Source of the DNA: Clostridium sp.
Lineage (GTDB): Bacteria; Bacillota; Clostridia; Lachnospirales; Lachnospiraceae
Direction: 5' to 3'
NCBI GenBank assembly: GCA_023664385.1
Contig: JAMPFU010000018.1
Location: forward strand, 1-51,476
Length of the DNA stretch: 51,476 nt
The first letter of the stretch is position 1. Every line of letters starts with the position of its first letter. Made by a program: the position numbers and the translations under genes. Positions 23,659-43,841 of the stretch are shown piece after piece. The notes under the pieces are model-generated. The model saw only the letters and a list, made by a program, of their open reading frames with translations, was not told where the DNA came from and ran no database searches.

Positions 23659-25218
23659 TTACTGTGGAATTTGATAATCTACAACCTTGCCATTTTCTAC
23701 CCCAATTCCAATATACCATGTTCCTGTTATTCCTCGATAAAGATTGGAATTTCCTTCTTCCACTCCATAAGAAACTATGCCATCATCGCTTTCAATGGTA
23801 ATTACTATCCCTGCATCAGCCAAATTATTATCCTCCGGGTTTGCTATCTCAATGTCATACCTTCCTGATATACTGGGCAGCCTGACGCTTCTCCTGCCCT
23901 TTGCTCCCATAGTATTTTCCACATATGTGCCTGCTGTTTCCGTATCATCGGAATAAAAACAATCATTAATTACAGTTTCCAAGCCTCCATCGGAAGTTTT
24001 TTTATTAATAATCATATCCAAGGCATCAACTGTGCCGAATTGCTCCCATCCAGTCCATTCTATGGTAACAATAACATCTCCGGTTCTTCTTTCAGTAATT
24101 TTATTTTCTGCATGCTTTCCTTCATTTCCTATATAATGATATTCATGCCATTGGTCTTCCATATTGTTACAGGAAAACACCATAAACATTTCATAATTAT
24201 CTTCCAATGGAGAAATGTGCAGCTCCTCAAAATATTCGTCGGAATCGTAATACAAATAAAAATGTCCGTTTTTCCACTCATATTTTCCAGTCGCCTTTTT
24301 ATCGCCAAAAGAAGCTTCCTTTGTTTCTGTCAATTCAAATGTACCATTTTTATTAAATGTTATATAATTTTCCACTGCATTACCGTCTGCATCAAATATT
24401 GCGAGTATTCCGTTATATAAGCCGCAATGCATCTTATACTTACCACAGGTAAAATATTCGCTTTCCGCCGGCTGAACATTCCACTCCAATTTCCCGTTTT
24501 CCAATGCCATAACATTTGCGTTGGACAAATCATAAGCTTTATATATCGATTTAAATATTTTTTTCTGCTTCTGTAATTCTGCTTCGGTAACCTTTATTTT
24601 ATTCCCATTTACATCAAAAACATAATATTCCAACTCATAATCATATGTGTTAATTGGAATTACCACACTCGAATATTTAAAGACTTCCTCCAATTCATTA
24701 TTTTCATTAAGACGCACATTCATTGCGATAGCTTCGCCTGTATCGTCCGATGTCTCATCGGAAACCCAATATTGAAAAAATCCATCATACATTTCCATAT
24801 CAGATTCCAATTCAATTTCTGTATCAATATCCACATACATCTTATATACACAAAAATCGTCTTCATATTCATGGTTTCCTTCCCCTATGTACAACTCAGG
24901 AATTTTGTCGTCGTTCAAATCACAAATTAAAAAATGCGGTTTAACATACATGTTATCACAATAATAATTTTTCAGACATTCACCATAAAATTTATATAAA
25001 TCCTGTAAATATTGCTGCCTTTCCAATTCTGCCTGCTGTTCGGCATCCTCTGTCGTTATTTCCGTAAAAGCCTCCGTAGTCGTTTCAGCTTCTGTTACTA
25101 TTACTTCGGAGGCTTGCTCCGTTTTATCTTCTTTTGTATCTTCCTCATTTGAAGAACAGCCAACAAGGGCTAAAAGTGTAATTGTAGTTATAATAAATGC
25201 GTAAAGTTTTCGTTTCAT
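23659..25218 (-). CDS. Putative lipoprotein (519 residues)
   Basis: The N-terminus KRKLYAFIITTITLLALVGCSS is a lipoprotein signal with lipobox LVGC, followed by a Thr/Glu-rich linker (to about residue 70). The rest is a secreted, acidic protein. Residues about 75-120 (YKFYGECLKNYYC... FLICDLNDDKIPELYIGEGNH) resemble the FG-GAP-like 'DLNDDKIPELYI' segment common in Clostridial lipoproteins. The C-terminal half is beta-rich and unassigned. It starts 83 bp after the TPR gene and could be the last gene of the export locus, though it could also be independent. Confidence 0.82.
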   Translation of the reverse strand: MKRKLYAFIITTITLLALVGCSSNEEDTKEDKTEQASEVIVTEAETTTEAFTEITTEDAEQQAELERQQYLQDLYKFYGECLKNYYCDNMYVKPHFLICDLNDDKIPELYIGEGNHEYEDDFCVYKMYVDIDTEIELESDMEMYDGFFQYWVSDETSDDTGEAIAMNVRLNENNELEEVFKYSSVVIPINTYDYELEYYVFDVNGNKIKVTEAELQKQKKIFKSIYKAYDLSNANVMALENGKLEWNVQPAESEYFTCGKYKMHCGLYNGILAIFDADGNAVENYITFNKNGTFELTETKEASFGDKKATGKYEWKNGHFYLYYDSDEYFEELHISPLEDNYEMFMVFSCNNMEDQWHEYHYIGNEGKHAENKITERRTGDVIVTIEWTGWEQFGTVDALDMIINKKTSDGGLETVINDCFYSDDTETAGTYVENTMGAKGRRSVRLPSISGRYDIEIANPEDNNLADAGIVITIESDDGIVSYGVEEGNSNLYRGITGTWYIGIGVENGKVVDYQIPQ

Positions 25219-25301
25219 ATGTTCTTCTCCTTGTGGTTATTCGCATAAGTTATAAATCATATGCCAATCCATAAGACACCTCTTTAAAAATTAATGTGCT
25301 C

Positions 25302-26516
25302 TTAATGGAAATCATCCGAAACCGATGCTGTGATGTCTATCAATTGAAAATCTGATTTCCATTGTTTTATTTTATTAACGTCCCTATCTACATCTTTCTT
25401 GCTACCTAGGACATTAGCTATTGATGCCCTTAAAATATATAGAAAAACATATTCAACATCTTCTCCATCAACTTCATTCATTATCTCTAATGCAGTACTA
25501 CATTCTTTTAAATACACACTCTTATCCTCTGAAACAATTGAAGCAAAACACTTAAAAAACAACGAATAATAATAAATATTATCTCTCACGGATATTGCAA
25601 TCAACTCCTCAGCTAAAGCCATAGAGATGGAAAAATCTGATTTTTTTAAGTATATCATTTGCAATGCAAAAATTGCCTCCCTATTAGCATATCTGATACG
25701 CAGGTCATCGTAAATTAATTGTGCTTCCTCAACCTTATCAAGAAGTGACAAAATATTTGCTTTTTCTAAAAAATATAGTTCTTCAAGATGTTTAATCTTT
25801 TCATAATTTTCTTCTAGCACAGAAAAAGCCTCGTCAAAGCGTTTCTCTTGCTTTTTTAGCCTTATAACGTCAAATATATACTCTGGTGTATTCTCAAAAT
25901 ACATTTTTGCCTGTTCCAAAGTTTCGTTAGCTAAATCGAATTTTTGCAAATCTTCCAAAAGACTCAGCTTCAAAGTATATCCATCATAAATTTGAGCATT
26001 TACACCGATAAATTCAGAACATATCTCGACTGCTTTCATAAATTCACCATTCCTATATAATATATCCACTATTTTTCTAAAAACAGCAATATTATCTGGT
26101 TCCATAAAAAGGGCTCTGTCATAAACTTCTAATGCCACATCATAATTTTCTATTTCTTCTGCAATTAAACCGATATTTAAATATAATGATATATCTTCAA
26201 TACCTAATTCAATTGCATAAGAATACAATCCATATGCATTTTCAAAGTTACCTCGTGAATGTTCGACATTTCCAAGGCATGCATAGATTTCTCCATTTTG
26301 ATTATTGATTGTAAAAGCTTTTAATAAAAATCTTTCGGCTACATCATATAAATTTAATCTAATACTAACTTGTCCCATCAAAACCAATGCAGCTTCACAA
26401 TCAGAATTCACTTCCAAAATTTCCTTTAAAACACGTATACACTCCACATTCTCTTGATTTTGAAACAAAGATATGGCATTGTTTAGTTTTATCTGCAATT
26501 CTTCATTCAAACCCAT
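25302..26516 (-). CDS. Tetratricopeptide-repeat protein
   Basis: A 404-residue soluble protein made of TPR-like helical pairs, for example YDVAERFLLKAFTINNQNGEIYACLGNVEHSRGNF and YDVALEVYDRALFMEPDNIAVF. No signal peptide or other domain is seen. The start is ATG 26516, five bases after AGGAG; two codons further upstream is a GTG with no site of its own. It follows the WXG100 cluster by 124 bp on the same strand. TPR proteins often act as scaffolds, so an adaptor or chaperone for the exported proteins is plausible but unproven. Confidence 0.83.
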   Translation of the reverse strand: MGLNEELQIKLNNAISLFQNQENVECIRVLKEILEVNSDCEAALVLMGQVSIRLNLYDVAERFLLKAFTINNQNGEIYACLGNVEHSRGNFENAYGLYSYAIELGIEDISLYLNIGLIAEEIENYDVALEVYDRALFMEPDNIAVFRKIVDILYRNGEFMKAVEICSEFIGVNAQIYDGYTLKLSLLEDLQKFDLANETLEQAKMYFENTPEYIFDVIRLKKQEKRFDEAFSVLEENYEKIKHLEELYFLEKANILSLLDKVEEAQLIYDDLRIRYANREAIFALQMIYLKKSDFSISMALAEELIAISVRDNIYYYSLFFKCFASIVSEDKSVYLKECSTALEIMNEVDGEDVEYVFLYILRASIANVLGSKKDVDRDVNKIKQWKSDFQLIDITASVSDDFH

Positions 26517-26646
26517 TACCACTCCTTTATATTATATGTATATGGCATAAGCATAGCTTTCTTGAGATTATTTTATCTAATGCCACCTCCCATTTCGCTG
26601 TCAAAGACACAATTTTCTCTTTTTTGCGAACATGCGATTTTTGCAA

Positions 26647-27843
26647 TTATTCATAGCCACCAAAAATATCCCGGTCGCCCACACTATCATTTCGAGCAAA
26701 ATTATCAACGCTAAAAGTACTATATTTTCTAGAATGCACATTATCATCTGACATCTTTTCAAAAGAAATATCAGACCTTAAGTCATCTATAAATTCTTTT
26801 GTATCCTTGAATTCGCCTCCTATAAGTGTTGTTTCAAACATTGTCTGTCCTAAATTCTTTCCTTTAGCAACTGAGCCGACGGTTTTCCCATATTTAATAA
26901 AATTTTGATATGCAGCCATTTTTTTAGAAACTCTTGAAATATCATCGCCTTTTGTGAGATTTTCAAGTATTTGCCCTTGTAATCTTTTTTTAGCAATTTT
27001 TTCAGTTATATTTTTTTGTATTTTCTCCGATGTTTTCAATTTAAGACCTTTTGTAACAGCTTCACTATTTGCATATTTTACATACTTTCCTTCTTTGTAA
27101 TCACCTACAAAAAGTTTTGCTACATCTTCACCATTATCAAAAATGTCTTTGATATCTTTGGCATAATCACATGCCTTTAATACTGACGAAAGTCCATCCG
27201 CCCCTGCTGTTTTTGCTAAATCAGCCGCATCATCAATTTTATATACTTTATCGTTTTCTCGTTGAATAGAATGAAATATATCATCATCATAATATCCTTT
27301 ACTGTGCATATAATTATTTGATACACAAGCAGACATAGCCCATATATCAGCCCCAAATGCAATTCCATCGTTAACCAAATCATATACGTTACCACTCATA
27401 ATATCCCCTAAAATTTTGGCCATATTACTCGTCATATCCCAAGATATGCGATACCATTGGTTTTCGTTATAAAACTTTTGATAAAAATTTGCAGCACTGT
27501 TTATTTTCCCTCCAACGTACTTTTGCGCATGGCTTATTTCCCGATCTATATTCTTAAACCAAGGACCATAAAGTTTATTTTTTGCACTATTATCTTTTTC
27601 TGCTATACACCTCTTTATGTCATTATAAAGTATTTTTAATATACAAATATCATTTTTGTAATATCCTATTTTTTTCTTTAATGAATATAAATCATCATAC
27701 GCATTATATTGCTTAGAAACCCCTTTGTAAGAACATGATGTGTAATTCTTTAATTGTTTATTTACACAATTTTCTGCATTTTGCAAAGCCGTTATCGCCC
27801 TATCAAAAATGGTATCAATTGAGGAATTTATCTTAAAATCCAT
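26647..27843 (-). CDS. Candidate exported substrate of the WXG100/EssC system
   Basis: A protein of about 398 residues with no family I recognise. The first 110 residues are helical and charged (SSIDTIFDRAITALQNAENCVNKQL...), a size and profile like the LXG or WXG-type targeting domains of T7SS substrates. A central, more hydrophobic stretch (MAKILGDIMSGNVYDLVNDGIAFGADIWAMSA) follows. The rest is Lys-rich. It directly follows five WXG100 genes (25-bp gap). ATG 27843 has GGTGG at good spacing; an ATG four codons earlier is the alternative. No signal peptide is present, as expected of a T7-type substrate. No toxin motif is evident. Confidence 0.6.
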   Translation of the reverse strand: MDFKINSSIDTIFDRAITALQNAENCVNKQLKNYTSCSYKGVSKQYNAYDDLYSLKKKIGYYKNDICILKILYNDIKRCIAEKDNSAKNKLYGPWFKNIDREISHAQKYVGGKINSAANFYQKFYNENQWYRISWDMTSNMAKILGDIMSGNVYDLVNDGIAFGADIWAMSACVSNNYMHSKGYYDDDIFHSIQRENDKVYKIDDAADLAKTAGADGLSSVLKACDYAKDIKDIFDNGEDVAKLFVGDYKEGKYVKYANSEAVTKGLKLKTSEKIQKNITEKIAKKRLQGQILENLTKGDDISRVSKKMAAYQNFIKYGKTVGSVAKGKNLGQTMFETTLIGGEFKDTKEFIDDLRSDISFEKMSDDNVHSRKYSTFSVDNFARNDSVGDRDIFGGYE

Positions 27844-27867
27844 TGTTGCCACCATCCTTTCTGCGAA

Positions 27868-28188
27868 TTAAAAAATATTATCAGTACTTAAACTATTTAC
27901 CTGACTATTTGTATTATCTAAATATGTAGTATACCCTTGCGCAATTTCTTTTAGCTTTTCAACATGTTCGGTTAATCTACTTAGGGAATTTATAATATTT
28001 TTATCTACATTATTGTATTTGTCCAAATAATTTTCTTGTGCCTTTGTTCTCCACACTTCTTCTAAGCTAATAATACAGTCTTTCATAGTTTGTTTCGTAT
28101 CCTGCATACTGGATATAATCCCTTCTATCACTCTTGCCTGTCTTTCTATTTCGCTAGGATCAACTAGTAATTCTAATTTATCTGCCAT
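27868..28188 (-). CDS. WXG100-like protein 5 (W-R-T variant)
   Basis: A 106-residue helical hairpin protein. The turn that normally carries W-x-G reads EEVWRTKAQENYLDKY, so the Gly is replaced by Thr. Helices before and after have the heptad pattern of the family. The gene is the last of five WXG100 genes in tandem. It probably forms a dimer with a sibling and is exported by the EssC ATPase. Confidence 0.82.
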   Translation of the reverse strand: MADKLELLVDPSEIERQARVIEGIISSMQDTKQTMKDCIISLEEVWRTKAQENYLDKYNNVDKNIINSLSRLTEHVEKLKEIAQGYTTYLDNTNSQVNSLSTDNIF

Positions 28189-28200
28189 AACATATCCCTC

Positions 28201-28497
28201 CTATTTTTTTGCAATTCCTGCTATTTCGTTTTCCTTATCAATTGTTGCATTAGCTATTGTTATAATCGCATTCCGATATTCTTGCATCACGGAAACAAGT
28301 TGCTCCATTTTTTTTAAATCGTTTGCATAACTATTATTAAACTCATCATTTGCAGCACCTTGCCACATTTCTCCCATTGCTTTAATAGCTTGCGTAATAT
28401 TTGTTGTGTCATCTGTCCATCGTTCCATTAAATCAGTTATTTTTTGTGCGACCGAAATCATTTCTTCAGGCCGTATAATATTTACTCCATTGCTCAT
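28201..28497 (-). CDS. WXG100 family protein 4
   Basis: A 98-residue protein with the central W-x-G turn in MGEMWQGAANDEFNNSY and two flanking amphipathic helices. It is closest of the five to the canonical EsxA length and pattern. Gaps to the neighbours are 12 and 18 bp, so the genes are one transcript. Confidence 0.93.
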   Translation of the reverse strand: MSNGVNIIRPEEMISVAQKITDLMERWTDDTTNITQAIKAMGEMWQGAANDEFNNSYANDLKKMEQLVSVMQEYRNAIITIANATIDKENEIAGIAKK

Positions 28498-28515
28498 AGT
28501 TATTCCTCCCTAAAT

Positions 28516-28806
28516 TTATTTTTTTGCAATTTCAATATTGTTTTTTTCTATTTGTTCCACTCTGAAAGCCTCCTTTTTTAATTTTTTTGAAATTGAATTG
28601 CATTGAGTGGTTAACGCATCTAATTTTTTATTTAATTTTACCAGAATACCCACATACTCACTTTGCCCTGTTCCTTTCCATGTGTCACTAATATTATTCT
28701 CAACATCTCCAACACGATTTTTCGCTACATGAATATAACCTGAAATTTCATACATAGAATCAGCAATATTTCTAAGACATTGCGTATCAACTTTAATTTC
28801 ACTCAT
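28516..28806 (-). CDS. WXG100 family protein 3
   Basis: A 96-residue helical hairpin with NISDTWKGTGQSEYVGIL as the W-x-G turn. The C-terminal helix is Lys-rich (SISKKLKKEAFRVEQIEKNN) and ends ...IEIAKK. It is in tandem with the other small Esx-like genes. Confidence 0.92.
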   Translation of the reverse strand: MSEIKVDTQCLRNIADSMYEISGYIHVAKNRVGDVENNISDTWKGTGQSEYVGILVKLNKKLDALTTQCNSISKKLKKEAFRVEQIEKNNIEIAKK

Positions 28807-28820
28807 GAATATTTCACCTC

Positions 28821-29144
28821 TTAACTAAAAATATGTTCATCCGATAACATTGAAACAACCTTTTCAGACTGTTCTTCAAGTTGTTGGTATCTGTCAATTG
28901 CTCCCAATAACTTTACATAATCATCTTTGTATAACTCCTTTGTTTCTTTTATATTTTTCAACAAGTCTCGACTTTTAAACAAATATTCCTCACACGCTAA
29001 TCCTGCCCAAATTTTATTATTTTCCTTTGCTATTTTACCTCCAAGTTTTTCATATTCCTGCATAATTGTGTCCAAAGAAGAATAAATTTTTTTTAATGAT
29101 ACTGCCATATCATTCAAGCCACTTAATCTATACAATATCTCCAT
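28821..29144 (-). CDS. WXG100 family protein 2
   Basis: A 107-residue protein with NNKIWAGLACEEYLFKS at the turn (W-A-G). It starts MEILYRLSGLNDMAVSLKKI and differs well from its siblings, so the tandem is an old, diverged array rather than a recent duplication. Confidence 0.9.
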   Translation of the reverse strand: MEILYRLSGLNDMAVSLKKIYSSLDTIMQEYEKLGGKIAKENNKIWAGLACEEYLFKSRDLLKNIKETKELYKDDYVKLLGAIDRYQQLEEQSEKVVSMLSDEHIFS

Positions 29145-29153
29145 CTCATATCC

Positions 29154-29477
29154 TCACCACTTCATAATACTTTGTTTTTTTATAATTTTTTGCTTTACTT
29201 CTTTATCACAAGGTTCATAATACTTTTCTATGATTGTTGATAAATCATTTATCTGTTTATCTAACCCATTTATAATTTCCTTAATTCGTTCCAAATCAAA
29301 GACAAGCAACTTCCCATACTCATCAGCAGCATATCCTTTCCAATCATCTAATAACTTTATTCTGGCATTAACAAGTTTTGTGACTTCCTCACTTAAAAGC
29401 TTTTTCTGTTTCTTCAGATTTGCATGCATAGTCCACATCTCATCTATATCCCAAATCCATCGGTTTACCTTTGCCAT
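29154..29477 (-). CDS. WXG100 family protein 1
   Basis: A 107-residue protein with LLDDWKGYAADEYGKLL at the W-x-G turn. It is first of the five in transcription order, 11 bp after the YukD-like gene. Confidence 0.9.
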   Translation of the reverse strand: MAKVNRWIWDIDEMWTMHANLKKQKKLLSEEVTKLVNARIKLLDDWKGYAADEYGKLLVFDLERIKEIINGLDKQINDLSTIIEKYYEPCDKEVKQKIIKKQSIMKW

Positions 29478-29488
29478 AACTTATCCCC

Positions 29489-29743
29489 CTAAACAAGCAT
29501 CAATCGATCGCCACTTTTTACGCCTGCAATTTCAAAAGTCATCTGTTCACATAAAAGTCCGTCAACATCCTCTTTATATAGTGATACAGTTTCTTCATTA
29601 ATTAAGTCCGTGCAACCATCTACATTTGTAATTTGCTCTATAATTCTTTTTTTTGCATCTTGTATCAGCAGTTTCCTTGATACCCAAAAATCATAAGTTT
29701 TAAATGTCATCGGACATTTCACATCAATAAGAATCTTGTCCAT
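29489..29743 (-). CDS. YukD/EsaB-like ubiquitin-fold protein
   Basis: An 84-residue protein of the size of EsaB/YukD. It begins MDKILIDVKCPMTFKTYDFW and ends VKSGDRLMLV, the last strand typical of the ubiquitin-like fold (…G-D-x-L-x-L/V). YukD-like proteins are cytosolic parts or regulators of Firmicute T7 systems. It lies between essC and the WXG100 genes, as expected. Sequence similarity is low, so position counts as part of the evidence. Confidence 0.72.
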   Translation of the reverse strand: MDKILIDVKCPMTFKTYDFWVSRKLLIQDAKKRIIEQITNVDGCTDLINEETVSLYKEDVDGLLCEQMTFEIAGVKSGDRLMLV

Positions 29744-29754
29744 AACAACCTCCT

Positions 29755-32700
29755 TTACCTAGGCATATAGCCATGCACATACCTATCACGTTCATAATGA
29801 TAGAAAATATTATTATCTTCTAATATATCTTGAACCTTATCCGGCATCTCAAATTTATGCATTTTCTGTTCATTTAGATTTCCACCAAAATGCAGCCCTG
29901 TTTGATAATCTTTAAATATTTTTGCAAACTCATATGTAACAGTTTGGTAGTAAGACGCCCTATCTACATAAGCTATAAAATGCACTCCCAATCCTTTTCC
30001 TTTTTTGCAAAAAGTTTCCATAATAGGATATAAATTTTCCAGATGCTTTCCCTCGTATATGCTCTCGCAAAATTGCATCAAATCATCAATTAAAATAATT
30101 ATATGATTATTATTTTGAAAAAAAGTATCTTGTTCACCTATTTCTCTTAACCGCTTCATCTCCTTATTTCTATATGTAAAAACTTCCTTTAAATACAATG
30201 CCAAATCAAACATATCAGAAAACTCCGAGCTAAGATTTATAAACCTCATTCCTTCGCATTGCTTTGATATATCATTAGATAAATTGTATCCTTCATACCC
30301 CATAAATTTTGTCGCATAACACAAATTATCAAATACCATTTGTTTGCTATCCACTGCATTACTTGTAATCGAATAGCAATATATATCTTTTAAATCAACG
30401 CAAATTTTAGATATATCTTCCATATTGTAACCTATAGGTAAAGTATGACATTCATAATTTCTCGATATATATTCATAATACTCTTCTTCAGGAATTGTCT
30501 TAACAATATCTGCCATCTCATACCCTGAATATCTCTCAGCAATATTCTCAAGCTCATTCTTAAGTATCAATATTCTCTCAGATTCGTCATGTGAGTTTAC
30601 AGCAATTAATGTTTGATACTCGCATATCATTCCTCCTGTTTCAATAAGCCCTCTGCCTTTCATATTCTGAGGAACAAATTCTACTGAATGCCCTATAAAA
30701 TCATAATATTTACTCTTATCACCATAATACAATGTTATAACATCTGAAAAATTCTGTCTCAGTTTATATCCCATATCATTTTCACTATTCACCGTTACAA
30801 TAATTTGAATACCGTACTTCACACCCTCTCGAGCTATAATTACCATTTCCTCATCAATTTCAGGGTACAGTTGTTTAAACAATGCATAGTTGTCAATAAA
30901 AACTAAAATTAACGGCATCATGCTTATTTTTCTTGCCTCGTTGAAGTTCCCGACACCAATATCATCAAAAGCCTTTTGTCTTACTATCATAGTATCTTGA
31001 ATAAGTTTTATGTTACGTTCAACTTTTTCCTGTTCTTCAGAAAAACATATGTTACCAAAATGTGGCATATTTTGAAAAACTTTCATTGTTCGACTTGAAA
31101 AATCAAAGCAATACATATTAACCATATTAGGTCCATAACTGTTTACTAACGAATATAGTAATGTCTGTACTAAAGTTGATTTACCTGTTCCAATGGCACC
31201 CGCAACAATAACATTTGCAGTATTTAAAAAATCTATCGTAGCTGGAAACTGTTTTTGACCTTCTGGATAGTCTGTAAGTCCGTACATTGCAACTAATCCG
31301 GCTGAAAAATCCACATTATATAATGACAACACCTCATTATATGTAATATATTTTTTAAGTGTAGGTAACCACAACTGTCTAGCGCCATGAATGCCATTCT
31401 TTTTTGTTACATTTTTCACATAATCAACACATGCATCAAGCTGTGAAATTTGTTTTGAATTTCCTCTCACTGTAGGTTTGCTGTAAAGGTCAATCCCATC
31501 AATCGATATCATAGAAACTATATTATGTTGTGGCAATTCAAGTTTTTCTCTTGGCATGTATGGAGCACCCGCATACCCTGATTGAAACATTTCAAATATT
31601 TCATCATTTCCAATTTGAATATATGCTCGTCCAACACCTGTAATATAGGCCGCTTCTGGTCGTTTCAACATTCCTTGGCTATCTTGTTTATCCTGAACCC
31701 TTAAACATACTTTAAATCTTGAATTACTCCAAATTTCATCATCCACAACCCCAGCAGGTTTCTGTGTCGCCAAAATCAAATGAATACCCAAGCTTCTTCC
31801 CACTCGAGCAGCACTCACCAATTCCTTTATAAACTCTGGCTGTTCCTTTTTCAATTCTGCAAATTCATCTGAAATAATAATCAAATGAGGTAAAGCTTCA
31901 ACTGTTTCGCCATTTCGATACAATTTTATATATGTGTCGATGTGATTCAAATTATATTTATTAAATATCCTTTGCCTTCTCTTTATTTCGCTCTTAATAG
32001 AAATAAGTGCACGACGGGCTTGATTCTCATCTAAATTTTCACCATCATCTGAATCAATATTAGTTATTGTACCAACAATATGCGGCAAACCCATAAATGG
32101 GACAGCCATTCCACCACCCTTATAATCAATTAGCACAAATGCAACCTCGTCCGGTGGATAATTCATTACTAGCGACAGTATAAATGTCATAATCAATTCA
32201 CTTTTACCAGAACCGGTTGTACCTGCAATCAACCCATGAGGTCCCGCCTTTTTCTCATGAATATCCAAATATAAAGGTCTGTTTCCGTTCGTTATTCCAA
32301 TCAATGCAGTAAGACCTTCATATGCCCTATTTTCCTTATAGTGTCTTATCAAATCCCATTGCTCAAGATTAGCTATATTGTACATTTCCATAAAACTGAT
32401 TTCTGTGGGAATCTCGCCACCTGCCGATTCTTTAACATGTATTCCACTTATTGTCCTTGCAAACATTTCACAACTTTCAACAGATATCTGTGGAAATACA
32501 ATACGACTTGTGGCATCACGATTTTTATCCAAAACATAATAACCACTGAATTCCTTATCCCACTGAATTATATGTTTGCATTCATTTGGAAGCTTATTAA
32601 TTTCATCGTAAAGCAATACAAAAGTAAAGTCATAATTTTTGTTTGATGTAATATATGAATAAATATTACTACCTTCAATTAGTCCAGCTCCTGTACAAAA

Positions 32701-34335: not shown

Positions 34336-34365
34336 ATTTCCCCTCCATACAATCACTACAATTTC

Positions 34366-37300
34366 TTAGTATATATACACCTCTTGTGTTCTTACATCAG
34401 TTTTTGCATCAGCAGCAACAGGCGTATCAGTCCATGCGCTCCATTCACCATAAACTGTCCGTTTATAGTTATATGTGTATATTTTATCTCTGTCTCTGTA
34501 ACGATATAAAACTCTCGTTTCTGTCGCATTCGTCTTAGTATCAGACCATTGGTAGTAATAATACGTCGTTGAATCCACAACCTGCTCCTCGTAAGTATAT
34601 GTGGTTGATGTTCCCTTTAAATACCAATAATTAAAACCATTTGTCCTGCACAAATGATTGCCATAAGCTTGTTTTCCACCAACATCCGGAAAATTAACAG
34701 CACCCAAGGCTGTATTCGTTGTGTATTCGCAATATTTATAATTGCTCTTTATTGCTCCCCCTGATTTTACGGAATCTATGCCAAGTCCTGACTCATTTGT
34801 GTAATAATTTTCATAGTGAAAATAATAATATGTTGTAGCTGCCGACTTATTTCTTATATTGCTTCCCGAACCTGGATCTGAGTTGCTTGTCTTTTTGTCC
34901 CATCTATAATTATAGGTCGGACTGCCATACTGCGTCCAGCCACCCAAAGAGCTTGACGTAGAAGACGTCGTATTTTTATACTGTGTTTTTGTTTCCACAT
35001 TCCTTGCCTCAGTTGCAGATACAGATGTGCCTGACCATTCACTCCAACCACCATAGTTACCCCATACGTATGTGCTTCCCGTCTGCTCCCAGCCTGACAA
35101 TGCCGGGTCTGATGACGTTGTCGTTTCATTGGTAATGGTTCTTGAACTATACTGTGTTTTTTTTGCATTATTGCATACACTGATAGTTATACTGCTGCCA
35201 GGCTCTACAACCGTTCCACCGTTTATGCTTTGCGATAAAACGGTTCCGTCTGCTACACCTTCTTTATGTGCATATTCCACATATACAACAAGTCCTGCCG
35301 ATGACAGCGTACTTTCCGCACTTTCTCTTGATGAATTTACCACATTGGGCACTGCTATATCTTTCGCAACTATAATCGTATCAACATTTGGCTTTACCAC
35401 TTCCGTTGTAGCCTCAGTATGAACATTCGTTGATTGATTTTGTGACGGACTTATTGCAGCTGTTTCGGTCGTAGCAATCGGCTGTGGTACAGCAGTTTGT
35501 TCATATGCCGCCTGCGTTTGCGTAGTTACAACAGCGTCTGCCATTGTAAGCGTGTTATCCGCATTATCATTTCCCAAGCTTACATACACAGTTATAACCG
35601 TCCCCGCATCAACCTCAGTATCAGCTGCTATTTCCTGTCTTATAACATTATTTTTTGCAACGGTATCACTTTCTTCATATTCAATAGATATAACTAAATT
35701 TAATTCTTCTATTACTGCTTTCGCCTGATCTACATTCATATACTGCAGATCCGGAACGTGTACAGTTTCTTTTCCCAAGCTTACAACCACGCCTATTTCT
35801 GTTCCTTGTGAAACTGTCAAACCAGGTTCTATTGTCTGTGATATAACTGTACCGGCAGGTACTTCCAAACTATATTCCCCCGATACCTTGTATGCATAAA
35901 CTTTATTATCTGCTGCCAACGCGACTGCATTTTCAAAGGATTGACCTACAAAGTCAGGAACAGTTGCCTGAAAAGAAGCATCATAGTCCATACCTGTTGA
36001 AATAACCAAATTGACAATATCTCCTGCCTGTACCTTTTCCCCACCGATAGGATTTTGGCTTATAACAGTGTCAGGTGCATAAATACTTTTTTCCTCGGTT
36101 ACGTCAATATCAAGCTTTGCCATATCTATTGCGTATTCTGCACTTTCCCTTTTAAAACCTATTACATCCGGAACAAAAACCTCCTCTGCTCCTGCACTTA
36201 TTACAACTCCTAAAGTGAATTTTTCATCTACTATAACCCCGCCATATTCAGTTTGTGCCAAAACCAAATCAGCATCCATATCATCCGAATGTGTTTTACC
36301 TAAAATCTGAATAATAACCGCTTGAGAAACGCATGTTTCCTCCGCCTTTTCAACATTCGTATTTATAAGATTCGGAACTCTTGTTTTTCCTTCAGGAATA
36401 ACGCTATCTCCCGCCTGTTTCATATTAAAATGAATTACACCTGTCACAAGCAGCAGAACAAATGCTACTGCCGCAGATATTGCAACACCTGCTGTCGCCT
36501 TTACCCACGCAGGAATTTTACCTGTGTCAAATTTTCTTTGTTTTATTTTTATTCGTTTTACCTCTTCAGCTTCAAGGTCATCATAAAATTTCTTTGCAGA
36601 CTGCGTTCGCTTGTCAAATTCAACATTCAAAGCATTCATAATCGCATTTTCCATGCTTGAAGATATTTTGACCCCAAGCTTTGAAGGTTCTTTTAACTTA
36701 TCATTTAAGGAACGATCCATAGCATCATCTACAGTAATTCCTGTTATGCATTTATAAAAGGTTGCCGCAGTTGCATATACATCCGTCCATGGTCCCTGTT
36801 CACCCCTGCTGCGATATTGCTCCACGGGAGAATAGCCTGTTTTAAGTATGACAGACAAGCTTTTGCTATGTGTAGTTGTTGCAAATCTTGCCGCTCCAAA
36901 ATCAAGCAGCTTAACAGTTCCTTCATTCGTAATGAATATATTGTCAGGCGCTATGTCCCGATGTAAAACGCCTTCCCCGTGCACCTCTTCCAATGCAAGT
37001 AAAATTGGTTTAAGCAGTTTAATCGTTTCATCTACAGACAATTTTCCTTCACGTTTCAGTTTTTCCTTTAGCGACTCCCCTTCTAAATATTCCATGACAA
37101 TGTATGCTGTGCTATTTTCTTCAAAGCTATCATACACATTTACAATACCCTCTGATTTTTGAAATAAGGCAAGACGCTTTGCTTCCTCGACAAATTTAGC
37201 TTTTCCTGAATCAAACTGTTCTTCACGTTCGCCATCATAAATCGTGAGTCCTTTCTGCTCCGGCATTCTTGTAGCAAATTCACTTGGGAAATATTCCTTG

Positions 37301-37521
37301 ATGGCAATTTTTTTCTGCAGCAAATAATCCCAGCCTATGTATGTAATACCAAAGCCTCCAAAACCAATAACCTTGCCTACAATATATCTTTCCTGAAGTA
37401 TGGTTTCCGGCTGAAGATGATATGCCTCATTTGCTATTTCGCCTAAAACAAATCCACAATTTGGACATACTCCATATTCTTCATCATATTCCTCCATACA
37501 GCCCATGCATCTTACCTGCAT
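34366..37521 (-). CDS. Membrane Ser/Thr protein kinase with five PASTA repeats and aromatic-rich C-terminal domain
   Basis: Numbering from the upstream GTG (4 more than the chosen ATG): a Cys4 zinc ribbon (residues 9-26, CMGC...CPNC), kinase domain about 50-320 with glycine loop GFGGFG (57-62), Lys79, HRD (191-193) and DFG (211-213). One transmembrane helix lies at about 343-370. Five PASTA units span about 385-655 and 725-792 (VPNLINTNVEKAEE, VPDVIGFKRESAEY, VPDFVGQSFENAVA, VPDLQYMNVDQAKA, VPNVVNSSRESAES), split by a Thr/Gln-rich linker. The last 260 residues are rich in Trp, Tyr, Ser and Thr, with GWSEWSGTSVSATEARNVET repeated as GEWSAWTDTPVAADAKTDVR. PASTA domains of PknB/PrkC bind muropeptides or wall polymers. 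It probably phosphorylates FHA partners or EssC. Confidence 0.94.
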   Translation of the reverse strand: MQVRCMGCMEEYDEEYGVCPNCGFVLGEIANEAYHLQPETILQERYIVGKVIGFGGFGITYIGWDYLLQKKIAIKEYFPSEFATRMPEQKGLTIYDGEREEQFDSGKAKFVEEAKRLALFQKSEGIVNVYDSFEENSTAYIVMEYLEGESLKEKLKREGKLSVDETIKLLKPILLALEEVHGEGVLHRDIAPDNIFITNEGTVKLLDFGAARFATTTHSKSLSVILKTGYSPVEQYRSRGEQGPWTDVYATAATFYKCITGITVDDAMDRSLNDKLKEPSKLGVKISSSMENAIMNALNVEFDKRTQSAKKFYDDLEAEEVKRIKIKQRKFDTGKIPAWVKATAGVAISAAVAFVLLLVTGVIHFNMKQAGDSVIPEGKTRVPNLINTNVEKAEETCVSQAVIIQILGKTHSDDMDADLVLAQTEYGGVIVDEKFTLGVVISAGAEEVFVPDVIGFKRESAEYAIDMAKLDIDVTEEKSIYAPDTVISQNPIGGEKVQAGDIVNLVISTGMDYDASFQATVPDFVGQSFENAVALAADNKVYAYKVSGEYSLEVPAGTVISQTIEPGLTVSQGTEIGVVVSLGKETVHVPDLQYMNVDQAKAVIEELNLVISIEYEESDTVAKNNVIRQEIAADTEVDAGTVITVYVSLGNDNADNTLTMADAVVTTQTQAAYEQTAVPQPIATTETAAISPSQNQSTNVHTEATTEVVKPNVDTIIVAKDIAVPNVVNSSRESAESTLSSAGLVVYVEYAHKEGVADGTVLSQSINGGTVVEPGSSITISVCNNAKKTQYSSRTITNETTTSSDPALSGWEQTGSTYVWGNYGGWSEWSGTSVSATEARNVETKTQYKNTTSSTSSSLGGWTQYGSPTYNYRWDKKTSNSDPGSGSNIRNKSAATTYYYFHYENYYTNESGLGIDSVKSGGAIKSNYKYCEYTTNTALGAVNFPDVGGKQAYGNHLCRTNGFNYWYLKGTSTTYTYEEQVVDSTTYYYYQWSDTKTNATETRVLYRYRDRDKIYTYNYKRTVYGEWSAWTDTPVAADAKTDVRTQEVYIY

Positions 37522-37543
37522 ATTATCATTCACCTCACGTAAT

Positions 37544-39442
37544 CTAATTTTGTTTCTGCAATTCGTTTAAATATGTATCTTCAATATAATTTTTATCAGG
37601 TGCCGCTTTTAACTCAGAAATATAGGAATTTACTTCTGACAATTCACCATTTACGTTTAAATACTCCTCAAAAATAGCTTTATTAACCGGAACACCATTA
37701 GAAATTTTAATGCTTTGCAAATAATATATATCCTGTACCTTTTCATTTAAAAAGTAATACAAAATCCTTTTAGCTGCCAAAATTTCATCTTTTTCAGAAT
37801 TCTTCAGCACTGCATAAGAAACATCACTCCAACAGTAATTTGCTTTTCCCTCAATCAAAGCGAGTGTTGTTACCTCGTACAATCCCGGAAAATCCGTTTG
37901 AATATCTTTGTACTTGCTTATAGGGTACACAACGGTTGTCAGTTCTTCATTAACTGCCCCTAACTGCAATTCACTCGTATTAATTGCAAAAGGAAAATCC
38001 ATTCCTATCGGTATAATGTATTTTGCATAGTCTAATTTCTGATATTCCTCAAGCATATAAAAATTATTCATATCCACAGAATCGTATACAGAAGATATAT
38101 TTTCCAATTCAATTTCTGGATTATGTACATCTCCCATAAACTCAAGCATTGTTGGTTTTCCTTTTCCTTCAAGTATTTCTTTTATTGCGGTTTCATAGCT
38201 TTCTTTCACTTCAATATTTACGGTTATATGAGGATAATCCTCTCTAAATTCTGCCAGCATGGCTTCATATGTCTGTTTCATCAATTCGTTATCCCTGCCA
38301 TCAGAAATACACCAAATTACTACTGTAGCTTCATTTAACTTTACATCACGTTCCATGCTCTTGTATCTGTAAATCCCTATACCTCCCAATAAAAGCACAA
38401 TCAGGCTTGCTGCCAAAATAATCATTTTTCTTCTTTTTTTGCGTCGTTTCAGTTCTCGTTCAACAGATAAAACTCTTTTTTTATCAGTTATTGCCTCCTC
38501 AAAATCTTCTATTGTTTTAAAACGCAAATCTTCATTCAATGCCATCGCAACTGACAATGCGTTGCTAATGTGTTCTGGAATATCGGGTTTTATTGTATTT
38601 GCGGGCTTTACTGTGTCCTCAATTGTTCTATTGACGGATTCCTCTGGCAAAACACCTGTCAGGGCTCTGTACATAGTTGCCCCTAAAGCATACACGTCCG
38701 TCCATGCTCCTTGTTTTCCTTTTGACCGATACTGTTCCGGTGGAGCAAATCCCGGTTTTAAAATAATGGATTTACTTGTATCGTCCTCCTCACTGCTAAA
38801 CCTTGCAGCACCAAAATCAATCAGCTTTATTTTTGTACCTTCACATATAAAAATATTGTCCGGGCTTATGTCACGATGTAAAATTTTATTTCTATGAAGT
38901 TCCTTAAGTGCATTTGCCACTGCCAAAAACACATTAAGCATTGTATCTGTATCTACACTCCCGCCCTGCTGATTTATGTATTCTTTAAATGAAATACCAT
39001 CAAGATATTCCATTACAATATATGCGGTATTATTTTCCTCAAAAAAATCGTATACATTTACAATATTTTCATGCTCACTGAATTTTGCCATGTTGTGCGT
39101 TTCATCAAGAAAACGGCTTAAGCCTTTTTTGTACTCGTCTTTTCCTCTGCCTGTATATAAAATTACATCCGAAGTTCCTGGTACACGGTTTACAATTCCT
39201 GCCGGATAGTATTCCTTAATTGCAACTACCATTTCAAGCTTATAGTCCCATGCCTTATATGTAATGCCAAATCCTCCAAAGCCAAGCACGGTACCTATTA
39301 TGTACCTGCCGTTTAATACGGTTTCCGGATAAAGATGATAAGGTTCTTCGGGCGGTTGTCCCAATTTATACCCACAATGTGGGCATCCTGCATCAATGTG
39401 TTTTTCATCATATTCCTGCATACAGTACATACATCTAATCAT
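37544..39442 (-). CDS. Membrane Ser/Thr protein kinase with extracellular solute-binding-protein-like domain
   Basis: 632 residues from ATG 39442, which overlaps the FHA gene stop (ATGA) and has AAAGGA upstream. A zinc ribbon (CMYC...CPHC, 4-23) precedes a kinase domain with GFGGFG (54-59), Lys76, HRD (189-191) and DFG (209-211). A basic stretch (ELKRRKKRRKM) and one transmembrane helix (340-360) follow. The outside part (about 373-632) starts ATVVIWCISDGRDNELMKQTYE and continues with FREDYPHITVNIEV, which is the start of a type 1 extracellular solute-binding protein; VPVNKAIFEEYLN near the end is also typical of that fold. A bacterial receptor kinase with a substrate-binding-protein sensor is unusual. 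It probably links an outside ligand to phosphorylation of the FHA proteins. Confidence 0.92.
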   Translation of the reverse strand: MIRCMYCMQEYDEKHIDAGCPHCGYKLGQPPEEPYHLYPETVLNGRYIIGTVLGFGGFGITYKAWDYKLEMVVAIKEYYPAGIVNRVPGTSDVILYTGRGKDEYKKGLSRFLDETHNMAKFSEHENIVNVYDFFEENNTAYIVMEYLDGISFKEYINQQGGSVDTDTMLNVFLAVANALKELHRNKILHRDISPDNIFICEGTKIKLIDFGAARFSSEEDDTSKSIILKPGFAPPEQYRSKGKQGAWTDVYALGATMYRALTGVLPEESVNRTIEDTVKPANTIKPDIPEHISNALSVAMALNEDLRFKTIEDFEEAITDKKRVLSVERELKRRKKRRKMIILAASLIVLLLGGIGIYRYKSMERDVKLNEATVVIWCISDGRDNELMKQTYEAMLAEFREDYPHITVNIEVKESYETAIKEILEGKGKPTMLEFMGDVHNPEIELENISSVYDSVDMNNFYMLEEYQKLDYAKYIIPIGMDFPFAINTSELQLGAVNEELTTVVYPISKYKDIQTDFPGLYEVTTLALIEGKANYCWSDVSYAVLKNSEKDEILAAKRILYYFLNEKVQDIYYLQSIKISNGVPVNKAIFEEYLNVNGELSEVNSYISELKAAPDKNYIEDTYLNELQKQN

Positions 39443-40383
39443 TTTTGTAAATCCTTTCCACATTGTTCGCAATATGATGCGTTAGCAATATTAGCTTTCC
39501 CACATATCGGGCATATAAAATTTTCATATGATGCCTCATAAAGCACCGTTGTTTCCCCATCATCATTTTCTGTATGCAAATTCTCATATGTTTCCTCATA
39601 TTGTATGTAATTGTAATCCACATCATAATTTATAATGCCTTTTCCCTTTTGCCATGTAAAATATGGCCCACATAACGGCATAAACATAAGTATTGTATTG
39701 CCTGCGGATATCAGATCGTAAGCATTTAGCGTCCTTTGAGCCAACACTAACTCATTGTTACAATATGTCAGCTTGTTTTTTTCATTTGGATATAAAATAA
39801 ATTGCACATTTCTAGCGTCATAAATAACTTTAAAATGCTCCTCTCTCGAAACACTGTCATCTTTATCAATACGAACATCCATGTTAATCGATCTTCCCAC
39901 AGTATTAACATTTTCATGCAATGGATAACAGCATCCTGAATTGGGACCATCTATACAAATAAGCCATCCAACTGCAAACATTATCTGCCTTTCCCTATCA
40001 GCCATACTACTGCCATAGGGAAAATCAACATTTCCACAAAGAGTTTGTGTCAATCCCATGTCAGAATTAATATATTTAGTGCTTTTTTCAATTTCATTAT
40101 TCCATTCATCCTGAACCTTGCTGCTTACCTCAAAAGGCACTTCCTCTTTTTCTCCAAAAATATGCCTTGTCGAATTTTTCATATTTTCTTTTTCTCTTGT
40201 AGAGAATGCAAATTTACCCGGGGCTTTTTTCTCAGATTTTCCTTCAGATATTACTTTATCCTCATTTTCTGTTTGTAATGTTGCATTTTTATTACTTTTT
40301 TCTTTAGCTTCACCACATTTAGGACACTGCGAAAATTTATCGCTATCATAAAAATGATGATTTTTACACTTTATTACCTTCAC
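39439..40383 (-). CDS. FHA-domain protein with zinc ribbons at both ends
   Basis: 314 residues from GTG 40383, chosen because AGGAGG lies 5 bases before it; the longer frame starts at a TTG inside that site. Zinc ribbon 1: CKNHHFYDSDKFSQCPKC (residues 5-22). A disordered, Lys/Glu/Thr-rich linker follows (residues about 25-125). The FHA domain is about 150-240 (NTVGRSINMDVRI, SVSREEHFKV, NNELVL). Zinc ribbon 2: CPICGKANIANASYCEQC at the C-terminus. FHA domains bind phospho-Thr; the Thr-rich segments around TKYINSDMGLTQTL could be kinase targets. It is an adaptor candidate between the kinases and EssC. Confidence 0.9.
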   Translation of the reverse strand: MKVIKCKNHHFYDSDKFSQCPKCGEAKEKSNKNATLQTENEDKVISEGKSEKKAPGKFAFSTREKENMKNSTRHIFGEKEEVPFEVSSKVQDEWNNEIEKSTKYINSDMGLTQTLCGNVDFPYGSSMADRERQIMFAVGWLICIDGPNSGCCYPLHENVNTVGRSINMDVRIDKDDSVSREEHFKVIYDARNVQFILYPNEKNKLTYCNNELVLAQRTLNAYDLISAGNTILMFMPLCGPYFTWQKGKGIINYDVDYNYIQYEETYENLHTENDDGETTVLYEASYENFICPICGKANIANASYCEQCGKDLQK

Positions 40384-40406
40384 CTTTTCCTCCTGCAAAG
40401 TAAAAC

Positions 40407-41183
40407 TTATCTCAATTTTGTTGTTTTTTCTGCGTCTTTTAAATATTTAATAACAATTGCGCTCGCATTATCCTGATACGGACTATTTTTATCCTTTAAT
40501 ACCCCGAGAAATATATTGGCAATCCTCTCTGCCGACTGTTCTTTGGTTAAAATTTCTACTATCTGCTCCTCTGGCATGCTTCTGTATAAGCCGTCGCTAC
40601 ACACCAAAATTTTATCGTTTTCCAAAAGCTTAAAAACATCCGTATTTATATCCATGAGAGATACATTTCCATATCCTACAAAGCTTATTAAATACTCTGC
40701 TTTTTCCAAATTTCTCTCATAAGCTTCTCTTGAAATCTGCCCCAGCCTTAATTGCTCATCCAAATACAATTGATAATTATGTTTTCTCGTAACGCTGGCA
40801 ACCATTCCATTTCGCTCTATATATATTCTGCTGTCTCCAATTGAAAGCCAATGTAGTTCATTTTCATCAATTATAATTCCGGCAAGCGTTGTCCCAGCAC
40901 CTAATCTTTCGCCTTTATTTCCCCTCAAGTCATATACTTCTTTATCAATTTCCATAGCTATACTTTTTAAGCACAGCCATATATTTCGCATGGGATATGC
41001 CTCTCTTGTATATTCAACAAAATGCTTCGCCGCCAAATCACTTGCTACAGCACCACCATTGCTTCCTCCCATACCATCACAGACAACTGCTATAGTAAAG
41101 TCATTGAAGCTGTACACTTCGACACTATCCTGTTGTTCATCACGCATTCCTATCCATGACATAATTCCGTATTCAACTGACAT
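40407..41183 (-). CDS. PP2C-family Ser/Thr protein phosphatase (second copy)
   Basis: 258 residues from ATG 41183, which overlaps the end of the first phosphatase gene by 11 bp. Motifs: RDEQQDSV, VVCDGMGGSNGGAVAS (metal-binding Asp and Gly-Gly), LSIGDSRIYIE and VCSDGLYR. PP2C enzymes remove phosphate from Ser/Thr with Mn or Mg and would reverse the two kinases encoded downstream. The hydrophobic N-terminal extension of the longer frame (MEKKAIWIIILQLG) lies inside the upstream gene and is not used. Confidence 0.94.
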   Translation of the reverse strand: MSVEYGIMSWIGMRDEQQDSVEVYSFNDFTIAVVCDGMGGSNGGAVASDLAAKHFVEYTREAYPMRNIWLCLKSIAMEIDKEVYDLRGNKGERLGAGTTLAGIIIDENELHWLSIGDSRIYIERNGMVASVTRKHNYQLYLDEQLRLGQISREAYERNLEKAEYLISFVGYGNVSLMDINTDVFKLLENDKILVCSDGLYRSMPEEQIVEILTKEQSAERIANIFLGVLKDKNSPYQDNASAIVIKYLKDAEKTTKLR

Positions 41184-41913
41184 CAGCAAACACCCCAATT
41201 GCAGAATAATTATCCATATTGCTTTCTTTTCCATTCTCCTGAATTATTTTTTTCATTTCATTCATCCATGTTTCAACATCATTCGCCTGCTTTAGGCATT
41301 TCGTCATTTCCTTTTCAGTAATCAGTTCCCAAAATCCATCTGTACAAAGTAAAAAAGCGTTTCTTTTGTTTGCTGATAACTTTATTTTTTCAGATATATC
41401 ATATTCAGGTTCATCCCACTCAGTTCCTATAACCCTAAGTAACCTATTTCTATCTTCATGATGCCTTATATCCTTTTCTTTTATTTTTTTTGATAAATAC
41501 ATCATATATGGCACGGAATGATCCTTTGACTGTTCCTTTAATTTGCCATCCTTAAAATAATACAATCTGCTGTCACCAACATAACCATATTGCATGCTTT
41601 CATCGTCAAGCATCATTGCAACAACCGTAGTTTTCATATCATAATTTTTTCTGTCTTTTTGTTGCATGGCAAGTACATTATTTTGTGCAAGACTGATTGC
41701 AGAAGCCAAAAAATCTTCTGCGTAATTACCCTTTTTAAATTCTTCCATGATTGAATTTACGACAGTTTTAGAAGCTACCTCTCCCGAGCTATGTCCACCC
41801 AAGCCATCGGCAACCACAAAAATTCCGATATTGTTGGCGCAGTAAAACCCTACGCTATCCTCGTTATTTGATCTATTACCAATTTCATTGCATATGCTAT
41901 ATGTAACCTTCAT
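41173..41913 (-). CDS. PP2C-family Ser/Thr protein phosphatase (first copy)
   Basis: A 246-residue phosphatase with RSNNEDSVGF, VVADGLGGHSSGEVAS, GYVGDSRLYYF, LCTDGFWE and MDNYSAIGVF, all family motifs in order. It is the first gene of the export operon and is preceded by a predicted promoter. The two copies differ enough to have distinct targets, for example one per kinase. Confidence 0.95.
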   Translation of the reverse strand: MKVTYSICNEIGNRSNNEDSVGFYCANNIGIFVVADGLGGHSSGEVASKTVVNSIMEEFKKGNYAEDFLASAISLAQNNVLAMQQKDRKNYDMKTTVVAMMLDDESMQYGYVGDSRLYYFKDGKLKEQSKDHSVPYMMYLSKKIKEKDIRHHEDRNRLLRVIGTEWDEPEYDISEKIKLSANKRNAFLLCTDGFWELITEKEMTKCLKQANDVETWMNEMKKIIQENGKESNMDNYSAIGVFADVS

Positions 41914-41943
41914 GTGCTTTCCTCTGCTTATTTTTTCTTTTTC

Positions 41944-41971
41944 AGTATATCATCTCAATATTTCAAAACAA
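41944..41971 (-). promoter_or_regulatory. Predicted promoter of the WXG100/EssC/kinase operon
   Basis: On the minus strand TTGTTT (41966-41971) and TATACT (41944-41949) are 16 bp apart, about 30 bp before the first phosphatase ATG. The -35 lies inside repeat R1, which continues upstream of it. Confidence 0.6.
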
Positions 41972-42016
41972 TATATCCGTCGAACTCGGTACAATATCGT
42001 GCACAGATTACATTTT
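41956..42016 (-). repeat. Shared upstream element R1 (61 bp)
   Basis: This 61-bp segment is 55/61 identical by eye to 48567-48627, upstream of the LRR-protein gene and in the same orientation relative to the gene. Both contain the predicted -35 box at one end and GTACCGAG / TGCACAG-type sequences further upstream. It may be a shared operator. In the same gap (41914-42293) the stretch 42017-42293 may be the decayed 5' part of the next reading frame. Confidence 0.7.
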
Positions 42017-42293
42017 TTGTAGCAGCTTTCCCATTTTGTGTTATAATAGGATAAAAACGCACGCAAAAACAGGGCGTCACTTTTGTCTTACAAATTTTGT
42101 ACCACAAAATTCACGCCTGATATGGTTCTTATTTTCAGCTGGTAGTCTACATTTTTATCCGATTACTTTTTCAGAAGTCCCGGCAGGAGTTGATGTGATT
42201 CAAATGGGAAAGGGAATAAATTTTGCAGCCCACAATGTAAGAACTAGTTTAATGTCTACAAATCAAGGGAAAAGAAGAAAGGAAACAAAAGAG

Positions 42294-43237: not shown

Positions 43238-43552
43238 TCACAAGTTTTGTTTTATTACTTCGTTGTCGTTCAGTGCATTTTCCAATATCCTGCTCAATAC
43301 AGACGTATAGCCTTTTCCTAACGACTTCGCTTTTTCCAATGCCTGTGGAGATAAGCGAATTGTAACCGTCTGCTTATTCTGCAACCTCTGCCGCCTTTCT
43401 CTTGCAGCTTCAGCAAGCTTCGCCATTTGTCCGTCGGTAAGCTCAGGACTATCCTCATCAGGAACAGCAGGAGAAACCTCAAGCTCCCTTAACATCTTGA
43501 GCTGTTCCTCAGTCAGCTTATCGTTTGGGTGCAATTCTTCATAAACCATCAT
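43238..43552 (-). CDS. brnA: BrnA-like antitoxin
   Basis: A 104-residue protein. Residues about 60-95 (QTVTIRLSPQALEKAKSLGKGYTSVLSRILENAL) form a ribbon-helix-helix DNA-binding domain of the BrnA type; the N-terminal part (DEDSPELTDGQMAKLAEAARERRQ) would contact the toxin. The gene overlaps the end of brnT by 14 bp, the usual toxin-first order of this system. BrnA neutralises BrnT and represses the shared promoter. Confidence 0.85.
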   Translation of the reverse strand: MMVYEELHPNDKLTEEQLKMLRELEVSPAVPDEDSPELTDGQMAKLAEAARERRQRLQNKQTVTIRLSPQALEKAKSLGKGYTSVLSRILENALNDNEVIKQNL

Positions 43553-43817: not shown

Positions 43818-43841
43818 ATTATCAACTCCTATTTTACTTTT

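Follow-up and report, generated by a model that had tools for sequence, protein, structure and literature searches.

The best-known relatives of the locus described here are the type VII secretion systems (T7SSs) of Staphylococcus and Bacillus, known as T7SSb. To these, Garrett, Higginson and Palmer (2024; PMC11217815) have added the subtypes T7SSc-T7SSj, some of which, as defined in the available text of their survey, lack EssB and carry genes for kinases, phosphatases and FHA proteins. In that text, T7SSe and T7SSj combine an FHA-bearing EssC ATPase with WXG100 proteins, a ubiquitin-like protein, a membrane kinase, a PPM phosphatase and an FHA protein, and control of the new subtypes by phosphorylation is already suggested from gene co-occurrence and FHA motifs. 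This article concerns a locus of this general kind in Clostridium sp. (Lachnospiraceae), found on contig JAMPFU010000018.1 of assembly GCA_023664385.1; the whole stretch of DNA analysed, 51,476 nucleotides long, is called the window. Fourteen genes run along its minus strand from 41913 to 25302, and beyond them lies a lipoprotein-like gene. They can be sorted into two units: a putative regulatory module at 34366-41913, with two PP2C phosphatases (F1 and F2), an FHA protein (J) and two membrane Ser/Thr kinases (D1 and D2), and a predicted secretion core at 25242-34365, with EssC, a YukD-like protein (B), five WXG100-like proteins (W1-W5), a candidate substrate and a TPR protein. The locus is probably an EssB-less, kinase-bearing T7SS made of these two separable units, of which the core is exchangeable. 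An earlier note on this DNA knew of no experimental description of the layout, allowing that comparative genomics might already have noted such loci; the kind is indeed published, with phosphorylation control already suggested (PMC11217815, in the text available).

How does the window compare with the described subtypes? In outline it is of the published kind, but it appears to match none of them as they are described in the text of PMC11217815. With T7SSe it shares an FHA-EssC, two or more WXG100 proteins, a ubiquitin-like protein (TseB), a kinase (TseD), a PPM phosphatase (TseF) and a separate FHA protein, the counterparts of TseD and TseF being matched by domain only; it differs in having two kinases and two phosphatases, an ectodomain resembling a solute-binding protein (SBP) on one kinase, and zinc-ribbon matches in J. 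J gives an FHA-type match, while DUF6382 is undetected at E 0.001, a family matched weakly (0.0032) even by the TsfJ-like protein of the same genome. The immunoglobulin-like (Ig) protein of the TseI/TsxI type known from G179, a genome of the same genus, matches nothing in the window's own genome (G000) at 1e-5, a search that divergent forms could escape. T7SSj, from Clostridium, likewise has an FHA-EssC, WXG100 proteins, a ubiquitin-like protein, a kinase, a phosphatase and an FHA protein, but its kinase TsjD carries a C-terminal TPR domain in the published description, whereas the window kinases end in SBP-like or PASTA regions, its TPR protein is separate, and a TsjI-type protein was not found for the window. 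The domain set of SBP-like and PASTA kinases with a zinc-ribbon FHA protein thus seems to lie outside the subtype descriptions in that text. T7SSf, from Clostridia, shares FHA-EssC and a YukD-like protein, but is described there with a TsfV ATPase, TsfJ and no kinase, whereas the window has two kinases and no labelled TsfV relative. A kinase gene nonetheless lies nearby in 4 of 20 rows of the T7SSf-like EssC clade (L074, L126, L136, L146), unlike the T7SSf of the published text.

The window's own genome carries three EssC genes, namely the window's and two T7SSf-like ones on contigs C50 and C22 (L032 and L033). The C50 locus has an AAA_31 protein, an FHA protein with a weak DUF6382 match and a YukD protein by Pfam; the C22 locus has relatives of this set by hidden Markov models (HMMs) built from window and neighbouring genes, and no kinase was seen in the stretches fetched around either. 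Kinase-regulated FHA-ABC transporters, such as Rv1747 with PknF, also join a kinase to an FHA-bearing transport ATPase, and a cluster of that make-up lies on contig C66 of this genome; they differ in having an ABC transporter where the window has EssC.

The separation of the two units emerges from comparison with close relatives. Contig C19 of G169, a genome of the same genus, is colinear with window positions 359-25241 in pieces of 93-99% identity (94.7% over the longest), interrupted by small rearrangements below 3.1 kb, and again with 34366-42037 at 97.3%. Between these flanks the window holds 9.1 kb, from EssC to the TPR protein, against 7.6 kb in G169, where a different EssC and B, four WXG100-like genes and a 424-aa candidate substrate are found. 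The cassette of the window (25242..34365, minus strand) is missing from the colinear G169 locus; its right border is the D2 stop codon, and its left border falls 23 bp ahead of the lipoprotein start. Its guanine-plus-cytosine (GC) content is 0.316, compared with 0.39 and 0.37 in the flanks and 0.347 in the G169 block. Protein identities between window and G169 are 98, 93, 98 and 98% for F, J, D1 and D2 (F values always being those of the best pair of copies), and 34 and 28% for EssC and B. With a second relative, G167, identities are 58 and 55% for EssC and B, and 35, 29, 46 and 50% for F, J, D1 and D2. A second mismatch of this type separates G163 from G167, with 61, 51, 64 and 67% for the same four regulators and 33 and 22% for EssC and B. 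The cores of the window and G167 have the same order (EssC, B, five W genes, substrate, TPR protein) at different positions relative to the regulators, as would be expected of a transferable cassette.

Phylogenies of the two units disagree accordingly. The regulator tree (J, D1 and D2) reads ((window,G169),(G172,(G163,G167))) and the core tree (EssC and B) reads ((window,G167),(G172,(G163,G169))), with fork supports of 97-100 in both and all four inner forks starred. When the core grouping was forced on the regulators, the approximately unbiased (AU) test gave p-AU values of 1.4e-49 (window with G167) and 5.1e-6 (G163 with G169), and the regulator grouping forced on the cores gave 1.2e-35 (window with G169) and 2.8e-44 (G163 with G167); likelihood gaps were 977-1153 units, for groups that were chosen after the identities were known. 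Parsimony suggests at least two core exchanges. Judged by sequence comparison, this modularity, a core swapped under kept regulators, is the new element of the locus: the titles and abstract openings listed from open-licence PMC papers showed neither a T7SS core exchange under fixed kinases nor SBP-kinases at T7SS loci.

The exchanged cores belong to distant EssC lineages. A tree of 71 of 72 EssC rows (made by a quick method with Shimodaira-Hasegawa approximate likelihood ratio test (SH-aLRT) supports only; G095, under 900 aa, was dropped, and a contig-end fragment from G006 is absent) puts the window EssC in clade I (11 rows, support 100, with L057, L070 and G167 being one place counted once) and the G169 EssC in clade II (8 rows, support 100). 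Genes in these loci were labelled with HMMs built from window and neighbouring genes rather than curated models, and open reading frames (ORFs) overlapping longer ones were dropped, so that the window row is short of one PP2C, B and one W. The full module, meaning PP2C, J, SBP kinase and PASTA kinase, accompanies six of the eight clade II EssC genes in four genera (G163, G169, G172, G012, G017 and G109, in the last at a distance of about 10 kb); the two others are G002, with a PASTA kinase only, and G181, where nothing was seen on an 8.1 kb contig. In clade I, apart from the window and G167, six loci have a kinase in which no SBP domain was detected, and in three (L060, L062, L067) no kinase was seen within the 1.8 kb or less of sequence upstream of EssC. 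The module therefore looks at home with clade II, and the clade I core of the window looks like a newcomer, in line with the low GC of its block. This neighbourhood comparison also bears out that kinase, phosphatase and FHA genes are conserved beside essC in relatives.

EsaA, EssA and EssB, which the earlier note had not seen in the window locus, were not found elsewhere in the genome either. Of the two sequence findings that the note had named as refuting its idea, neither turned up. Profile searches of the own genome (80 contigs, completeness 100), with positive B. subtilis controls, gave 0 matches at E 0.1 for EssB and for EsaA (N-terminal model TIGR03929), and the sole EssA match, below cut-off, falls within a DUF1385 protein and was rejected. 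Among 53 EssC-bearing genomes (40 of 150 and 14 of 37, the own genome being in both sets), EssB was found above cut-off in seven and in none of the remaining 46. These seven make up exactly one EssC clade of eight rows (G025, G038, G056 twice, G060, G072, G085, G086); matches below cut-off in G002, G082 and G147 each lie on a contig other than that of EssC. Because EssB presence tracks the EssC clade, the window clade is, by these profiles, not T7SSb. It shares with T7SSb an EssC above the TIGR03928 cut-off, a YukD-like protein and WXG100 proteins, but has kinases of the catalytic type instead of the pseudokinase EssB.

Each gene of the run is an ORF at the coordinates given, all on the minus strand, and most products have Pfam or NCBIfam support, so the run of genes noticed earlier is real. 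From F1 to the candidate substrate, genes are spaced by 8-18 bp, apart from two overlaps of 62 and 34 bp; 124 bp then separate the substrate from the TPR gene, and 83 bp the latter from the lipoprotein-like gene. The phosphatase F1 (41173..41913, 246 aa) matches PF13672 at 5.5e-17 and F2 (40407..41234, 275 aa) at 7.7e-13, both with metal-site motifs recognised by eye. They are 25% identical and their ORFs share 62 bp; the hydrophobic start of the F2 ORF is doubtful, and its true start is probably internal. J (39439..40398, 319 aa) has its FHA region between zinc-ribbon-like ends, with matches to PF16697 (1.1e-07) and FHA (9.2e-04) just under cut-off, zinc-ribbon matches beside them and no transmembrane segment (TM) by hydropathy. 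The kinase D1 (37544..39472, 642 aa; Pkinase 8.3e-38) keeps VAIK, HRD and DFG and has one TM at 350-368 by crude hydropathy. Its ectodomain matches SBP_bac_1 at 8.1e-4, below cut-off, while two relatives 29% identical in this region match SBP_bac_8 at 1.6e-11 and 2.6e-12, and the G017 kinase matches SBP_bac_1 at 2.9e-9; a four-row profile searched against the PDB matched sugar-binding proteins weakly (best 2.8e-4). We take it as a diverged solute-binding domain. D2 (34366..37533, 1055 aa; Pkinase 5.7e-32, PASTA 3.2e-50) keeps IAIK, HRD and DFG, has a TM at 349-367 by the same crude hydropathy, four PASTA stretches and an extra C-terminal tail. The idea that D2 is the housekeeping PrkC was ruled out, since a separate PASTA kinase locus lies on contig C44 beside PP2C, RsgA and ribulose-phosphate epimerase, which we take to be the usual PrkC neighbourhood.

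In the core, EssC (TsxC; 29755..34356) has an N-terminal FHA domain (1.6e-16) and two TMs, and scores 1047.7 bits against TIGR03928 (cut-off 778.4); its start is probably the TTG at 34335, preceded by GGAGGGG. B (29489..29743, 84 aa) is YukD/EsaB-like through its relatives: YukD is matched by 10 of 12 members of its alignment, window B being one of the two that are not matched by Pfam, and hhalign gives a probability of 79 to the YukD-like proteins of C50 and C22. The five WXG100 proteins counted previously are likewise unequally supported. Three match PF06013 singly, namely W3 (28516..28806; 1.3e-09), W4 (28201..28497; 1e-08) and W5 (27868..28188; 1.1e-08), the last reading W-R-T instead of WxG. 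W1 (29154..29477) has a WKG motif and a TIGR03930 match far under cut-off (E 0.018), and W2 (28821..29144) a WAG motif and no Pfam match; their WxG motifs were read by eye, and HMMs seeded from them match WXG100-like genes in related loci. The broad marks of a type VII locus are present, that is an EccC/EssC ATPase with adjoining WXG100 proteins, three by Pfam above cut-off and two as weaker relatives. The candidate substrate (26647..27855, 402 aa) has no Pfam match; its G167 relative, at the equivalent position, is 25% identical across residues 45-235. Clade II candidate substrates at L072 5207-6481 and L071 5775-7034 look helical in their N-terminal half and, by eye, like a cysteine peptidase or amidase in their C-terminal half, with no Pfam match above cut-off. 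The TPR protein (25302..26522, 406 aa) matches TPR families from 2e-10 and is 28% identical to its G167 counterpart.

Beyond the core, the lipoprotein-like protein (23659..25218, 519 aa, no Pfam match) belongs to the flank kept in G169, where it is 97% identical, and its membership of the locus is uncertain. A promoter scan was uninformative (76 promoter-like sites for 90.1 expected); terminator-like sites numbered 12 for 6.8 expected and were not used in the interpretation. On the other side, window positions 43238-43552 encode a BrnA antitoxin (PF14384 1.8e-11), overlapped by a 104-aa ORF at 43539-43853 that is perhaps its BrnT partner, and 44558-48445 a protein of 1295 aa with numerous leucine-rich repeats and EF-hand-like matches.

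Might this simply be an ordinary member of T7SSe or T7SSj, one that has lost its TsxI gene, with TsxH and TsxK either lost too or unrecognised? The genes TsxA, B, C, D, F and J are indeed common to these subtypes and the window locus (PMC11217815, available text), Ig-protein matches are seen in the clade I relatives L059, L061 and L069, and a kinase occurs in 8 of the 11 clade I loci. We nevertheless consider it unlikely. The own genome has no Ig-protein match and J no DUF6382 at the threshold given above; the SBP-like and PASTA ectodomains are unlike the TPR domain that the published text gives to TsjD; and the window regulators group with those of clade II loci. As for single-TM genes of the TseH/TseK type, the 8-18 bp gaps between F1 and the substrate leave no space for an extra gene in that stretch.

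If the locus is instead a regulatory module coupled to an exchangeable core, a working scheme can be proposed. It is plausible, by analogy, that the kinases substitute for the missing components, having like EssB a cytoplasmic kinase domain, one TM and an ectodomain; D1 and D2 would then occupy the membrane position that EssB holds in T7SSb, with their cytoplasmic kinase domains meeting the N-terminal FHA region of EssC. Kinase activity would be set by ligands, a solute on D1 and cell-wall fragments on the PASTA repeats of D2; phosphorylation of module proteins (J, the kinase tails, possibly EssC) would switch how the core assembles or works, and the two PP2Cs would reset the switch. Since related modules pair with different cores, the contact probably runs through a generic FHA/kinase interface rather than through surfaces closely fitted to one another.

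Several observations weigh against this scheme or against the two-unit reading behind it. The canonical FHA arginine is needed for phosphothreonine binding. In the motif scored here (G-R, S, H, N-G, read from an alignment of the first 450 residues with L062, which has no FHA region, outside the count), the window EssC reads GS, S, H, NG and thus misses this arginine. The residue is kept in only one of ten readable clade I rows, the others having Ser (seven, the window included), Asn (one) or Lys (one), with S, H and N-G conserved throughout the ten; clade II keeps G-R, S/T, H and N-G in 8 of 8, and the T7SSf-like clade keeps Arg and His in 0 of 19 readable rows (of 20). The EssC phospho-switch proposed earlier is weakened to that extent. 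J keeps its G-R in the window, G169, G012, G017 and G109, and misses it in G163, G172 and G167; in G167 the arginine is missing from both EssC (G-N) and J (G-S), so that not every member has kept the canonical reading of phosphothreonine. Some modules may likewise have lost kinase activity: HRD is unmatched in the G012 SBP kinase, and both this kinase and its G109 counterpart have DLG for DFG. The full module is seen in just 2 of 11 clade I loci, the window and G167. A model of the D1 ectodomain structure, with a mean predicted local distance difference test (pLDDT) score of 46.4, was not good enough for use. Nor is the module exclusive to T7SSs: of 150 family genomes, nine have the SBP-kinase ectodomain, and in four of these (G000, G012, G017, G109) an EssC gene lies no more than about 15 kb away; the other five have none nearby, G040 and G075 having no EssC match at 1e-40 and G101, G111 and G143 having EssC on other contigs. 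In the window's own genome, a second kinase/FHA/PP2C cluster at about 62-89 kb on C66 (L103, L110) has no EssC in the 45-101 kb fetched.

Some of this can be accommodated. The window EssC may dock by another contact, by analogy with EssB and its FHA partner in B. subtilis, where, according to the available text of PMC9600267, the pseudokinase domain of YukC and the FHA region of YukB copurify, or it may read phosphate weakly. Phospho-gating of export stands as an unproven proposal drawn from sequence.

The occurrence of the module without EssC limits the claim that it is a T7SS part, and suggests a wider reading as a sensor for FHA-bearing transporters. The C66 cluster holds kinases including a PASTA kinase, PP2Cs, a J-like protein, a VWA-FHA protein, an FHA-FHA-ABC transporter and a CHAP-domain protein. 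Runs of PP2C, J-like, VWA-FHA, SBP kinase and PASTA kinase genes also lie without EssC nearby in G111 (L192, contig C3) and G143 (L193, contig C120), neither run showing an FHA transporter, and in G040 (L189, contig C61) an SBP kinase, an FHA and a PP2C gene stand beside two surface proteins with ChW or leucine-rich repeats. We tentatively raise the idea of a portable phospho-signalling module that would plug into different FHA-bearing transport ATPases, namely two anciently diverged T7SS cores and the FHA-ABC transporter of C66, the sensor being kept while engine and cargo are swapped as one cassette. The same occurrences, together with the separate histories of module and core, could also suit a cell-envelope sensor that adjoins export genes by chance and has an unrelated job. 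This is improbable, however, as the module sits near EssC in eight loci (six of clade II, the window and G167), in four genera and varied gene orders, following two or more replacements of the core as counted by parsimony, and as the D2 and EssC ORFs of the window are 9 bp apart. That the replacement is an assembly or binning artefact is very improbable: G167 is a metagenome-assembled genome and G000 and G169 are draft assemblies, but both cores are complete with independent relatives (the window core resembling that of G167, the G169 core that of G163), both junctions are intergenic and mid-contig, and a second mismatch exists between G167 and G163.

A natural exchange of cores beneath conserved regulators points to cooperation between module and core more strongly than co-occurrence does, and near-identical kinases with two different EssC partners make the coupling of kinases to a T7SS directly testable. 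In S. aureus, exchange affects the EssC C-terminus; here whole T7SS engines appear exchangeable between close relatives, beyond effector genes or the EssC C-terminus. The locus further suggests that export in this bacterial family may be gated by solutes and wall fragments.

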